Positions 32,559 through 37,651 of a stretch of 64,000 nt of DNA are shown piece by piece. Origin of the DNA: Actinotalea soli (GTDB lineage Bacteria; Actinomycetota; Actinomycetes; Actinomycetales; Cellulomonadaceae); NCBI RefSeq assembly GCF_017565425.1, contig NZ_JAGEMK010000001.1, forward strand, positions 310,001-374,000, in the 5' to 3' direction. A model generated the notes under the pieces. It saw only the letters and a list, made by a program, of their open reading frames with translations, ran no database searches and was not told the DNA's origin. The translations under genes were made by a program, and so were the position numbers. Each line of letters opens with the position of its first letter. Positions within the stretch are counted from its first letter, which is position 1.

Positions 32559-32630
32559 GGGCGATTGGCGCAGCGGTAGCGCGCTTCCCTGACACGGAAG
32601 AGGTCACTGGTTCGATCCCAGTATCGCCCA
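32559..32630 (+). tRNA. tRNA-Val(GAC), integration target
   Basis: Acceptor GGGCGAT/ATCGCCC, discriminator A; anticodon loop CTGACAC (GAC) on stem CTTCC/GGAAG; T-arm CTGGTTCGATCCCAG. CCA follows at 32631-32633. The gene is intact because the element restores the 3' end on insertion: its last 45 bases form part of the 51-bp att repeat. Confidence 0.97.
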
Positions 32631-32636
32631 CCAGCA
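32586..32636 (+). repeat. attL: 51-bp direct repeat within tRNA-Val(GAC)
   Basis: Identical over 51 bases to 37573-37623. It begins in the anticodon stem and runs through the T-arm, acceptor, CCA and the next three bases. Confidence 0.92.
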
Positions 32637-32650
32637 TCACCGCAGGTCAG

Positions 32651-34062: not shown

Positions 34063-34317
34063 TTACACGCTCGTGGAGACGTACGAGCGGCAGCGCTCGA
34101 CGAAGTCCCTGAGCGCTTCGGCCGGGATCTTTCGGAGTCGGCCGACGTGAACCGACTCGAGCGCCCCGCTCTTCATCAGCTCGTAGACGCGGGTCCGGCC
34201 GATTCCCAATAGGTAGCCGGTCTCCTCGACGGAGAGCAGGATCCGCGGGGGCTCCGCCGCCCTCCCAGCGGTGCGGCTCGTACGGCGGTCGAAAGACGGG
34301 TACGGGTCTCTGGTCAT
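34063..34317 (-). CDS. xis: Excisionase-like helix-turn-helix protein
   Basis: 84 aa. LLSVEETGYLLGIGRTRVYELMKSGALESVHVGRLRKIP is cited by its parts: SVEETGYLLGIGRTRVYEL is the winged helix-turn-helix and VGRLRKIPAEALRDF the wing and end helix, as in AlpA/MerR-type excisionases. A strong AGGAGG SD precedes the ATG. It lies upstream of int on the same strand, the usual place for a recombination directionality factor. It could also regulate transcription through the CGATGACG repeats that begin 50 bp upstream of its start. Confidence 0.85.
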   Translation of the reverse strand: MTRDPYPSFDRRTSRTAGRAAEPPRILLSVEETGYLLGIGRTRVYELMKSGALESVHVGRLRKIPAEALRDFVERCRSYVSTSV

Positions 34318-34894: not shown

Positions 34895-35308
34895 CTACGC
34901 GGTGTCGTCGGGCGACTCGGCAACCAGCTCCACCTCGAACCCTGCTGCGTCTTCGAGGTAAGCGGCGTAGGTGTCCGGCCCGCCAGCGTGCGGATGCTGG
35001 TCCGCGAACATCAGGGTCCAGCCGTGCTCCACGGCGTCGGCGACCAGGGCGTCGAGGTCGGCGCGCGAGCCCGCCCAGAACGCCACGTGGTTGAGGCCGC
35101 TGCGCAACCGGTTCTGCGGTCCTCGCACGTGAGCCGAGCCGGACTCCAGCGCGACGTAGGCGTCCTCGAGCGTCCAACTGCGGCCGGTCTCCCAACTGCT
35201 GGCCAGGCGGTAACCCAGCCGCTGCAGCAGCCAAGGCCAAGGTCCATCGGTCGAAGTCGCATCGTCCATCCACAGCTCGAGGTGGTGCAGGCGGCCAGGG
35301 GTGCTCAC
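34895..35308 (-). CDS. VOC-superfamily protein (glyoxalase/bleomycin-resistance fold)
   Basis: 137 aa from GTG 35308. Two beta-alpha-beta-beta-beta modules: RLHHLELWMDDAT at the N-terminus with metal-ligand histidine, LNHVAFWAGSRADLDALVAD in the centre, and AAYLEDAAGFEVELVAES with a ligand glutamate near the end. These spacings match single-domain VOC proteins that dimerise. Roles in the family include dioxygenase, isomerase and drug-binding resistance; none can be chosen. First cargo gene of the element. Its downstream side carries the repeat region. Confidence 0.8.
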   Translation of the reverse strand: MSTPGRLHHLELWMDDATSTDGPWPWLLQRLGYRLASSWETGRSWTLEDAYVALESGSAHVRGPQNRLRSGLNHVAFWAGSRADLDALVADAVEHGWTLMFADQHPHAGGPDTYAAYLEDAAGFEVELVAESPDDTA

Positions 35309-35363
35309 GCACGCATCCTGTCGGCCTCCCGGGCCCGAGCGCACATCCGGCCCGAGTCGGGTG

Positions 35364-35374
35364 CGGCATGAGCG
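35364..35374 (+). repeat. CGGCATGAGCG copy 1
   Basis: In the gap between the VOC gene and the 84-aa gene, 56 bp from the VOC start. Sequence continues CGCGCG. Same orientation as copies 2-4. Confidence 0.6.
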
Positions 35375-35404
35375 CGCGCGCCGGACACCCCCGTGACGCG
35401 CCCG

Positions 35405-35410
35405 TACGCT
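35405..35410 (+). promoter_or_regulatory. -10 element TACGCT for the 84-aa gene
   Basis: TACGCT ends 6 nt before the ATG at 35417, the spacing of a leaderless start. Confidence 0.35.
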
Positions 35411-35416
35411 CAGATG

Positions 35417-35671
35417 ATGGAGCCCTCGGACGAAGCCACCATCACGGTCACCCGCGGCGAGTTGATGCTGCTGACCGCCGGCCTGACGGCGTACCTGACA
35501 GCCTTCGCTCGGCATCGCGACGAGGACGGCGGGGCGTCCCATCCGGAAGCGGAGTGGGTCGAGTTGCAGCGCCGAACCGGTGAGCTCATCTGGCGGCTCG
35601 AAGAAGCGGGCGGGCCGCCTGGGGCCCGCATCATCCACAGCGCTGAGGCTGTTGAGCCGGGCAGTCCGTAG
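35417..35671 (+). CDS. Small protein of unknown function, element cargo
   Basis: 84 aa, unrecognised. ATG 35417 is preferred over the adjacent ATG 35414 because it fits a leaderless start. The sequence is balanced and protein-like: an N-terminal strand (DEATITVTRGELM), a helix LLTAGLTAYLTAFARHRD, an acidic stretch and a second helix EWVELQRRTGELIWRLEEAG. No signal peptide or membrane helix. It is the only cargo gene on the plus strand. Confidence 0.6.
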   Translation: MEPSDEATITVTRGELMLLTAGLTAYLTAFARHRDEDGGASHPEAEWVELQRRTGELIWRLEEAGGPPGARIIHSAEAVEPGSP

Positions 35672-35704
35672 CGAGAGCCATCTGCGGCTGCATTTGCCTC
35701 GCAG

Positions 35705-35715
35705 CGGCATGAGCG
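35705..35715 (+). repeat. CGGCATGAGCG copy 2
   Basis: In the 74-bp gap between the 84-aa gene and the convergent SRPBCC gene, so it is not in a promoter position. Preceded by the inverted repeat CTGCG/CGCAG (18 bases before it). Confidence 0.6.
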
Positions 35716-35745
35716 GGATGAAGCCGAGCAACGTTCTCGTGGCGC

Positions 35746-36249
35746 TCAGGGCTCCGATGTCGGCGCGCTGGATGCGTAAAGCTCGACGAGGTCGTCGTAA
35801 CCGGACCAGAAGTCGTCGATCGGGAGGTCGTCACCCCGCAGGTGCCCGTGGAGGTACTGGAGGTGACGGTGCCAGCCAGCGGCGTAGGAGACGGCGTCCT
35901 CCAGATCCTCGTGATGCAAGGTCAACCTTGAGGTGGAAGGGCTCTCCTCGGCGAGAGTGAACGTGACGCGGCTCGTCCGTTCCTCCGGAAAGTCCCACGT
36001 CAGAGACAGCAGGTGTCCGGAGTGCCACTTCGTCACGGTGTGCCGGGACCGGACGGTCTTGTCATGCCACAGGTCGAAGCGACCACCCTCGGCGATCGCG
36101 ACGGTGTCGAGTCGTCCCAGCCAGCTCACAGTGCGCTGGCTGTCTGTGAGTGCGAGCCATGCCTGCTCCACAGGCGCCGGCAGCGTGACCCGCATGCGTA
36201 CCTCGCCGCCCACGGCGTCGGCACGGCCGACGATTTCGGGAAGTCGCAC
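35746..36249 (-). CDS. SRPBCC/AHSA1-domain protein
   Basis: 167 aa from GTG 36249. The START-like ligand-binding fold of AHSA1 type is visible: RMRVTLPAPVEQAWLALTDS, VSWLGRLDTVAIAEGGRFDL, GHLLSLTWDFPEERTSRVTF and the closing long helix DAVSYAAGWHRHLQYLHGHL. Members bind hydrophobic ligands or act as chaperone-cofactor relatives; the ligand is unknown. No clear SD before the start, so the first residues are uncertain. Element cargo. Confidence 0.78.
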   Translation of the reverse strand: MRLPEIVGRADAVGGEVRMRVTLPAPVEQAWLALTDSQRTVSWLGRLDTVAIAEGGRFDLWHDKTVRSRHTVTKWHSGHLLSLTWDFPEERTSRVTFTLAEESPSTSRLTLHHEDLEDAVSYAAGWHRHLQYLHGHLRGDDLPIDDFWSGYDDLVELYASSAPTSEP

Positions 36250-36308
36250 GCCGACGATTGTGCCGGAGCAGGAGATGAGAAGGCACCCCGATCGCGGCGC
36301 GCGGGCCG

Positions 36309-36319
36309 CGGCATGAGCG
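36309..36319 (+). repeat. CGGCATGAGCG copy 3
   Basis: In the 127-bp gap between the SRPBCC gene and the 311-aa gene; continues TGCGGA, sharing 15 bases with copy 4. Confidence 0.6.
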
Positions 36320-36376
36320 TGCGGAGTCAGCAGCGAGGCCGTACAGCAGGCACTTGATGCTGCGCAGGCTGTGAGC

Positions 36377-37312
36377 TCACGGCTCGACGAACCAGGCGTG
36401 CCATCGCGCAGTGACCGTGCCATTGGGCTCAGGCGTGACCCCTCGCAGTGCGGGCATTTCGTCGTAGAGGTCCGGGGGCGCGGGACGGCCGCGCCACACG
36501 AGACCGTCGGCGACCTGGACGTCGGCATGAACACCCCACCTGTAGCTGCTTCGACCGGTGAGGCGGTAGACCACACGGGGAATCGCAGCGAGGGTCAGCC
36601 CGGTGAGGCGCTCCGGCCACTGCGGCCAGACGGCGACGTAAGAGCCGGCTCGCGTGGTCGGGTGAGTCCCTCCGGCGGTCATGGTCCAGCGCCGCGGCCA
36701 TGCGGCGTGCTCGATGATGGCGACCGCACCGCGCGCAGCCGCCAACGCGTCCACGTCGGCCCAGAACGACGCATCCACCACTCGTGCGCTGTGGTCCATG
36801 TCGTCGAGGTCACGCTCGTAAGGAGAACTGCTCATCGGTTCTGGGAACACGCCGAGCGCTGACGCGGCTTCGACCGACTTGGGGCACGGCTTGCTGGCGA
36901 CGATGTACATGTAGAGGTCGTAGCCGACGTGGATTGCGAAGCCAGAGAAATGCTCCAGACGGCACCAGACATCCCCGCGGTGCATCCACCGCACGACCTC
37001 TATGGCGTCGGCGGCTGAGAGGGCCGCGCCGTCCACCCATCGCTCCAGGCCGGTCCCGAGAATCCGTGCGAGGGGATGGGCGGCGGCGAGCGGCTCACGG
37101 TCGGGGTCGGCCTCCAGGTGCGACTCGGGATCTCGAACGGTCAGCTCAGTGACGCCGCACTCCTCCATGAAGCTCCGGGCGGCCTCAAGGTAGGCGCGCT
37201 CGACTGGGCCACGATCGCTGACCGAATCCAAGGCGCCGTGGTACACGCCCTCGGTATCGCGATCACGAGGGTCGTACTGCGTCACGCGGTAGACGTGGGA
37301 GCCGGGAGTCAC
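36377..37312 (-). CDS. Conserved protein of unknown function, element cargo
   Basis: 311 aa from GTG 37312. I do not recognise a named domain. It starts VYRVTQYDPRDRDTEGVYHG and has SDRGPVERAYLEAARSFMEE, a form I associate with uncharacterised actinobacterial proteins. The middle (VVRWMHRGDVWCRLEHFSGFAI, GYDLYMYIVASKPC) and the C-terminal half, rich in W, R and P, look globular and soluble. No signal peptide. Last cargo gene before the right arm site. Confidence 0.7.
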   Translation of the reverse strand: MTPGSHVYRVTQYDPRDRDTEGVYHGALDSVSDRGPVERAYLEAARSFMEECGVTELTVRDPESHLEADPDREPLAAAHPLARILGTGLERWVDGAALSAADAIEVVRWMHRGDVWCRLEHFSGFAIHVGYDLYMYIVASKPCPKSVEAASALGVFPEPMSSSPYERDLDDMDHSARVVDASFWADVDALAAARGAVAIIEHAAWPRRWTMTAGGTHPTTRAGSYVAVWPQWPERLTGLTLAAIPRVVYRLTGRSSYRWGVHADVQVADGLVWRGRPAPPDLYDEMPALRGVTPEPNGTVTARWHAWFVEP

Positions 37313-37389
37313 GGCAGAAGCCTCTCAGTCGACGCACCGAACCTGGGCCCCGCCGAGCCGCCCACCGGGCCCAATCCTCGCTCGCTCAT

Positions 37390-37400
37390 CGGCATGAGCG
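37390..37400 (+). repeat. CGGCATGAGCG copy 4
   Basis: In the gap between the 311-aa gene and the right arm site. Here the motif is part of a hairpin, GCTCAT-CGGC-ATGAGC, and continues TGCGTGA. Confidence 0.6.
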
Positions 37401-37449
37401 TGCGTGACATCACATGACGGCGCAGCGTTTGGACGTACTGAGGAGCGCC

Positions 37450-37471: not shown

Positions 37472-37572
37472 GTCGCGGCATTCGCCTACGTCCGCCACCA
37501 GTCGTCGGCGACCGCGCGTCGTCTTGACCAGGCCAAGCGCTCGCGAGCGGCCCGTCCCGGACACCCTTCGCG

Positions 37573-37623
37573 TCCCTGACACGGAAGAGGTCACTGGTTC
37601 GATCCCAGTATCGCCCACCAGCA
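37573..37623 (+). repeat. attR: 51-bp copy of the tRNA-Val(GAC) 3' half
   Basis: Exact repeat of 32586-32636. The 5' half of a tRNA is absent upstream, so this is an attachment-site remnant and not a working tRNA gene. Confidence 0.92.
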
Positions 37624-37651
37624 AAGCCCCAGGTCAACGACCTGGGGCTTT
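37623..37651 (+). terminator. Original tRNA-operon terminator, displaced by the element
   Basis: Perfect 13-bp stem AAAGCCCCAGGTC / GACCTGGGGCTTT with loop AAC, beginning at the last base of attR. Before integration it would have followed tRNA-Val(GAC) directly. Confidence 0.8.

Follow-up and report, generated by a model that had tools for sequence, protein, structure and literature searches.

The closest described counterparts of the locus analyzed here are integrons, the pdif modules of Acinetobacter and the tyrosine-integrase islands of tRNA genes. A class 1 integron reportedly exists on a Corynebacterium plasmid, being named in a reference list. Complete integrons are reported to be missing from Actinobacteria (PMC9024848), and the available excerpt of a tyrosine recombinase classification, which assigns simple recombinases to dimer resolution, integron recombination and non-conjugative elements, mentions no actinomycete cassette system (PMC8138268). 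Here we describe a 64,000-nucleotide stretch of the Actinotalea soli genome (assembly GCF_017565425.1, contig NZ_JAGEMK010000001.1, positions 310,001 to 374,000; hereafter the window), in which an 11-mer, CGGCATGAGCG, recurs between the small genes of a tRNA-Val island. Based on the sequence comparisons below, we propose, with a probability of roughly 0.8, that this motif forms the core of a site used for site-specific recombination in an actinomycete gene-cassette system with a dedicated XerD-like recombinase. Arrays in one orientation, cassettes that are shared between species and end at sites, and a strand-biased recombinase beside the sites all support this reading at the sequence level. 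In the open-licence literature we found no description of this cassette system, and earlier work may exist elsewhere.

The resemblance to integrons lies in the mostly single small genes between same-orientation sites, in a recombinase that in part of the loci reads away from an upstream site, in the presence, close to or between sites, of toxin-antitoxin, GNAT, Arr and unknown genes, and in the existence of arrays without a recombinase. Unlike integrons, however, the system has a XerD-like enzyme that scores below the cut-off of the IntI model and short inverted arms with no clear fold, and its recombinase gene is often flanked by sites on both sides, as if in a cassette-like unit. It is integron-like in its working and, by the tests made (IntI model and attC fold), is not an integron. 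With the pdif modules of Acinetobacter, as characterized in the accessible part of the report on them, it shares arms around a 6-bp spacer and small accessory modules between sites, but there C and D modules alternate and host XerCD is used, whereas here we observe one direction and a linked, dedicated enzyme (PMC13141974). The array of the window sits in a tRNA-gene island and three other site clusters lie near integrases; such islands carry cassettes but leave the internal sites unexplained.

Site arrays in the window and in related genomes

An exact search of the whole window places CGGCATGAGCG at 35364, 35705, 36309 and 37390, all on the + strand and within 2 kb, and nowhere else in the 64 kb. 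The sites are spaced by 341, 604 and 1081 bp, and the order runs VOC gene, site, gene for 92/84 aa, site, SRPBCC gene, site, gene for 311 aa, site, with one site to the right of each cargo gene. An earlier note, made from the sequence alone, had described exactly this, including the lack of further exact copies in the window, and exact search and gene order bear it out; its single inexact match, at about 6050, was an undercount, since 14 window matches with at most one mismatch (3.88 expected; 14 reached by 0 of 100 shuffles) include 10 inexact ones. Across the 3.63-Mb genome there are 19 exact copies, compared to 11 for a reversed-letter control, the remaining 15 being isolated, dispersed singles. 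By our own arithmetic the genomic density predicts about 0.008 copies per 2 kb, so the four found are far from chance. A motif equally common throughout the genome would, according to the earlier note, have spoken against its reading; the motif is instead unevenly spread.

A 27-position weight matrix scores the four window sites between 13.8 and 29.3 bits (Table 1), with the runner-up place in the window at 9.5; the window sites belong to the 141 sites on which the matrix was trained. The matrix scan of the window detected no site to the left of the VOC gene, where the earlier note had likewise seen none, and because of this the status of that gene as a cassette is unsupported.

Arrays of the motif in other genomes, which the earlier note had suggested looking for, are indeed present in relatives, and they are longer. 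Among 39 related genomes searched with a 14-mer, one has four copies within 5 kb that all share a direction, with none in its reversed control. Exact CGGCATGAGC occurs in eight copies in locus L016 and nine in L017, in one direction throughout, and a 38-bp unit that begins and ends with the motif recurs in L017, L036 and L037 (L and G numbers denote our loci and genomes). Across 49 loci, with duplicates removed and the window included, neighboring sites 31 to 4000 bp apart with matrix scores of at least 18 form 120 same-direction pairs and no opposite pair, a count that is identical whether overlapping loci are kept or removed; at a score of at least 13.5, there are 167 same-direction and 6 opposite pairs, with a median same-direction spacing of 754 bp and 13 spacings under 60 bp. 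Genes between sites read in either direction, and site orientation ignores gene strand. A role as promoter or operator, which the earlier note had rightly thought insufficient, was rejected on this ground.

Structure of the site

The consensus of 141 distinct sites, CRYNCGSTCA-GCGGCA-TGASCGNRYG, is approximately 26 bp long, with inverted arms around a 6-bp center. These sites were preselected for GCATGA and at most one mismatch, meaning that conservation within the 16-mer is present by construction and only the left arm is free; the complementarity of this unselected arm to the right arm peaks at offset 0 (mean of 5.06 of 10 positions, compared to 2.1 to 3.7 at 12 other offsets). Two arms around a 6-bp spacer are therefore present as in pdif sites, and the 10-6-10 layout is the look of a tyrosine recombinase core. 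The right arm, at the cassette start, is strongly conserved and the left arm, at the cassette end, weakly; a loose left arm would be expected if the enzyme held one arm tightly.

Variant sites were also observed. At about 6165-6331 in L045, a cassette-end unit like CGGCAGATCCGGGCGAGCGTAGCCGCCCTC is repeated in tandem with a 34-bp period, and similar ends are found in L029, L038, L046, L098-L100 and L103; they resemble empty cassettes whose right arm is a variant, GATCCGGGCG, and in L116 the recombinase has a variant like GATCCGGGCG upstream of it. In genome G009 (L084-L088, L104), nearly all exact sites read GCGGCATGACCGTGCG, mostly after GGTCA, and this homogeneous set suggests a recent spread of one site type.

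Cassettes shared between genomes

Comparison of loci revealed several genome pairs whose gene content switches at the motif, which is the pattern that the earlier note had proposed to look for and which, together with the arrays in relatives, supports its integron-like cassette reading. G001 and G016 have 827 nt in common at 90% identity, starting at a site in both; the G001 copy ends at the next site, and the right site of G016 contains one extra base (GCGGCGATGAGCG) and is not counted as a site. The 50-bp flanks of this segment are only 0.43 and 0.45 identical. Cassette A of the window is found in G013 (86%; query 484-836, window 35363-35715) and in G017 (82%; query 484-830, window 35363-35709), with both matches beginning at window position 35363 (query 484), the first base of the center, such that site 1 is a boundary common to the window, G013 and G017. 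Its right end in G017 meets a variant site, GCGGCAGATCCGGGCG, and the 50-bp flanks are 0.48 to 0.56 identical, compared to 0.49 for random 50-mers. Other copies extend from site to site (L090, 98.7%; L086/L087, 89%), and a copy of 320 nt in L016 (99.7%) begins at a site and stops about 27 bp before a weaker one. Overall, 22 of 74 segment ends have a site no more than 25 bp away in one or both of the loci compared, versus 2.83 expected under the same rule. This count is based on the 37 of 1,085 shared segments that were kept after dropping those with recombinase overlap, less than 80% identity, less than 150 bp or near-self matches; L128 contributes 8 of the 37 as internal repeats.

A XerD-like recombinase beside the sites

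Loci fetched by the motif alone (L089 from genus g22, L103 from genus g23, L023 and L040) encode one family of 308-aa XerD-like tyrosine recombinase, although the L023 copy is without its C-terminal part and L040 retains only a remnant; L092 was reached both by the motif and by the recombinase. Of 19 genomes of the window's genus, G017 and G018 alone carry the recombinase (E ≤ 1e-20), one copy each and both beside sites. In G017 (L092), the recombinase, HicB-type genes (named from their L040 relative) and a relative of cassette A lie within 2.2 kb. Genome scanning with the family yielded at least 40 loci, in Kineococcus, Kribbella, Nocardioides, Lentzea, Nocardia, Terrabacter, Tessaracoccus, Ornithinimicrobium, Actinomadura and others. 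Among the loci listed, two are without an actinobacterial label, namely L119 (a metagenome-assembled genome called Acidobacteria) and L147 (25% identity, Prevotellaceae), the latter being counted in the 40-locus set and left out of the 39-locus sets. Class-wide, a relative at E ≤ 1e-60 is found in 19 of 394 genomes and 16 of 138 genera, and all 113 plasmid records with a recombinase relative fall below 60% identity.

We observe a pronounced strand bias of the sites relative to the recombinase. Using the 16-mer pattern with at most one mismatch, which was set before the recombinase loci were fetched, 25 of the 40 recombinase-fetched loci contain at least one site, with 43 sites on the strand opposite to the recombinase and 4 on the same strand. 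The matrix version, for which the training sites came partly from those loci, gives 49 opposite and 7 same-strand sites in 39 loci (658 kb) and 0 with a reversed matrix; control loci (213 kb, some touching an array) contain 3 matrix sites. In the 350 bp that precede residue 22, 13 of 39 loci have a site with a matrix score of at least 10 on the strand opposite to the recombinase, and 1 has such a site on the recombinase strand. When the pattern was loosened and the interval set to 50 to 180 bp, both choices made after that result, the counts are 17 of 39 opposite and 2 same, compared to 35 of 1,845 random intervals. An attI-like site beside a divergently read recombinase is hence present in part of the loci. 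On the far side, 12 of 16 drawn loci (a set picked because sites were present in most of them) have a site 0.9 to 3.7 kb from the recombinase start, and L089 and L082 are similar; the recombinase gene may itself sit in a cassette.

With respect to its relationships, the L083 recombinase matches PF00589 (9.6e-28), and the G017 enzyme is 31 to 35% identical to the presumed XerC and XerD of the same genomes, labels that we assigned ourselves. The family forms its own branch with 92/93 support, in a tree in which XerC_G001 is probably in the wrong frame. R160, K186, H250, R253, H276 and Y285, which are invariant or nearly so in 24 aligned rows (H250 is P in L110), are presumably the catalytic residues of the R..K..HxxR..H..Y type.

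The tRNA-Val island and its cargo

The window array sits on an island of about 5 kb, bounded by a 68-bp direct repeat (93% identity) that holds the 3' part of tRNA-Val (Table 1). The island integrase is 28.5% identical to the cassette recombinase and falls in a separate branch of the tree, on which basis it was rejected as the cassette enzyme; the earlier note had seen only a phage-type integrase in the element, and the likely recombinase is instead the XerD-like one. For cassette B, the start was picked by us, and the frame stays open up to 36576.

Table 1. Coordinates of island features and recombination-site candidates in the window
Feature	Position	Strand	Evidence
attL-like direct repeat, holds 3' part of tRNA-Val (gene 32559-32633)	32582..32649	+	repeat search, 68 nt, 93% to 37569-37636; ARAGORN
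Phage-type tyrosine integrase of island, 406 aa	32761..33981	-	PF00589 3.5e-28
Small helix-turn-helix protein, 84 aa, excisionase-like by place (putative role)	34063..34317	-	PF12728 3.7e-9
VOC/glyoxalase-like protein, no left site	34895..35311	-	PF13669 6.1e-8; matrix scan
Site 1; left arm 35353-35362, center GCGGCA 35363-35368, right arm 35369-35378	35353..35378	+	exact motif; matrix 19.8
Cassette A protein, 92 aa (84 aa from later ATG), unknown family	35393..35671	+	no Pfam match
Site 2, weakest; center 35704-35709	35694..35719	+	exact 11-mer; matrix 13.8
SRPBCC/AHSA1 protein of cassette B	35746..36195	-	PF08327 1.7e-13 on long frame
Site 3; center 36308-36313	36298..36323	+	matrix 28.9
Cassette C protein, 311 aa, unknown family	36377..37312	-	no Pfam match
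Site 4, last of array; inner CGCTCA-TCGGCA-TGAGCG, perfect inverted repeat	37379..37404	+	matrix 29.3
attR-like direct repeat	37569..37636	+	repeat search

The window array consists of sites without a recombinase on a tRNA-Val island and may be a stranded set, comparable to the CALIN elements that the available part of the literature offers for recombinase-less arrays (PMC8618304). Site clusters lie 0.7 to 6 kb from phage-type integrases in four loci (L016/L076, L042, L102 and the window), and the integrases of the window, L042 and L076 belong to a tree branch other than that of the cassette recombinase. Islands of this kind may ferry cassettes between genomes without the recombinase. In twelve additional loci of about 3 kb that carry VOC or SRPBCC relatives, no site reaches a matrix score of 14.

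Pfam assignments for 20 proteins between or near sites in relatives comprise VOC, an AAA/zeta-toxin-like kinase, HicB, three GNATs, a methyltransferase, two Arr (rifampin ADP-ribosyltransferase) proteins, SUFU and a weak LRR match, with nine proteins lacking a match. Toxin-antitoxin-like pairs are found beside the recombinase or inside arrays (L083/L092, 1136-1768; L040, 869-1487; L041, 2304-2921). L112 and L143 carry, by eye, a YefM/YoeB-like pair just after the recombinase, and the HicB of L040 was assigned by Pfam. Of the Arr genes, that of L088 (3339-3749) is about 30 bp from a site, and that of L103 (1548-1973) lies beside the recombinase, with the nearest listed site 3.4 kb off.

Alternative explanations

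Movement of dif-like modules by host XerC/XerD, in the manner of the Acinetobacter pdif modules and with the nearby XerD-like enzyme as a mere passenger, would account for the inverted arms and 6-bp center, which resemble a Xer site (28 bp, 6 bp of which are spacer, in the accessible part of PMC13141974), and presumed XerC and XerD proteins (by length and score) are present in 19 of 19 genomes of the genus, in which the dedicated enzyme is rare. Still, we consider this unlikely, given that the uniform orientation of the sites (120:0 and 167:6) differs from the alternation of pdif modules and that, across genera, the dedicated recombinase retains its strand bias and, partly, its place relative to the sites, a conservation that argues against a passenger. 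A true integron with diverged IntI and attC is very improbable, even if a recombinase divergent from a site just upstream and arrays of small-gene cassettes with uniform sites are what such an element would present. Four members of the family score 60.6, 53.2, 53.1 and 48.7 bits on TIGR02249 (integron integrase), far below the cut-off of 265, and the first of these scores higher on the XerD and XerC models (126.4 and 123.8); none of the 19 genus genomes encodes any protein above the TIGR02249 cut-off. GTTRRRY boxes are a feature of integron sites, and the consensus is without one.

Folding points in the same direction. For 141 sites folded over 66 nt with RNA parameters, the mean z-score is −0.26, compared to −0.10 at +200 bp, and z < −2 is reached by 6% in both; for 140 sites folded over 146 nt with DNA parameters, the mean is −0.34, compared to −0.10 (top strand) and −0.15 (bottom strand), with shares of z < −2 of 8% versus 4% and 6% versus 6%, respectively. 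The slight shift in mean energy would favor an integron, and the little or not raised share of strong folds speaks against one. An attC-like fold as a general feature was rejected by these z-scores, and hairpins spotted by eye at some loci are not general. There is no clear attC-like fold, with a slight effect or a small, rare folded subset being possible; of the longer folded site that the earlier note had suggested looking for, the longer part stands (about 26 bp with inverted arms rather than 11 bp) and the folded part finds no clear support. Intergenic repeats without a role in mobility (terminators, REP-like hairpins or operators) could explain why the window sites are intergenic and why some cassette ends have repeats such as CGGCAGATCCGGGCGAGCGTAGCCGCCCTC. 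This explanation is hardly credible in view of an orientation independent of gene strand, the missing clear hairpin signal and the link to a recombinase, and shared segments that break at the motif with random flanks contradict plain repeats. Single copies of the pattern do form a common background, but chance as the source of the arrays has a practically negligible probability when four copies lie in 2 kb, the one-mismatch count is reached by 0 of 100 shuffles and arrays recur in relatives. Phage origin was also rejected: among 49 viral stretches with the exact 16-mer, 0 have at least two sites at a matrix score of at least 16, and none has a recombinase match at 1e-8.

Several observations nevertheless weigh against a cassette system with a dedicated recombinase. 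We infer recombination from sequence and observed none. The window genome has no member of the recombinase family at E ≤ 1e-20, and with only 2 of 19 genus genomes carrying one, most arrays there are without the enzyme. Within the sequence retrieved, no site was found in 15 of the 40 recombinase loci at no more than one mismatch, 26 of 39 loci have no site with a matrix score of at least 10 just upstream, and of the 56 matrix sites in these loci, 7 are on the unexpected strand. Moreover, the looser threshold gives 6 opposed pairs among 173 neighbor pairs, 52 of the 74 ends of shared segments lie away from sites, and lone motif copies are a common background, with 125 of 221 family genomes having at least one exact match to the 16-mer pattern. 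Among the recombinases themselves, the presumed catalytic tyrosine, Y285, is replaced by C in L103 and by D in L114, 15 of 39 frames end prematurely, and three more contain a shifted stretch (L124, L131, L137); given these early stops and the loss of the tyrosine in two rows, many copies are probably dead. The recombinase gene seems to decay often while the sites remain.

Proposed mechanism and implications

In the cassette system that we propose, a cassette would comprise the 6-bp center GCGGCA with the conserved right arm, usually one small gene in either direction, and a weak left arm, and the next cassette would begin at the site to which this preceding left arm belongs. A XerD-like recombinase of about 308 aa would bind both inverted arms and exchange strands within GCGGCA, acting on double-stranded DNA. 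Two direct sites would then release a circular cassette, and the circle could enter another site.

We think it likely that this system represents a third bacterial cassette platform, independent of IntI integrons and XerCD dif modules, in which XerD-like recombinases of actinomycetes capture and shuffle small genes at short 10-6-10 sites and the recombinase gene is perhaps itself mobile as a cassette. Short sites that do not depend on a fold could serve as genetic tools. If the reading is true, a third platform would occupy the gap left in this phylum by the known near-absence of integrons, would account for blocks of small, mutually unrelated genes in the genomes of actinomycetes and would provide a searchable signature for them, and it would suggest that the integron way of life has arisen more than once from Xer-type recombinases.

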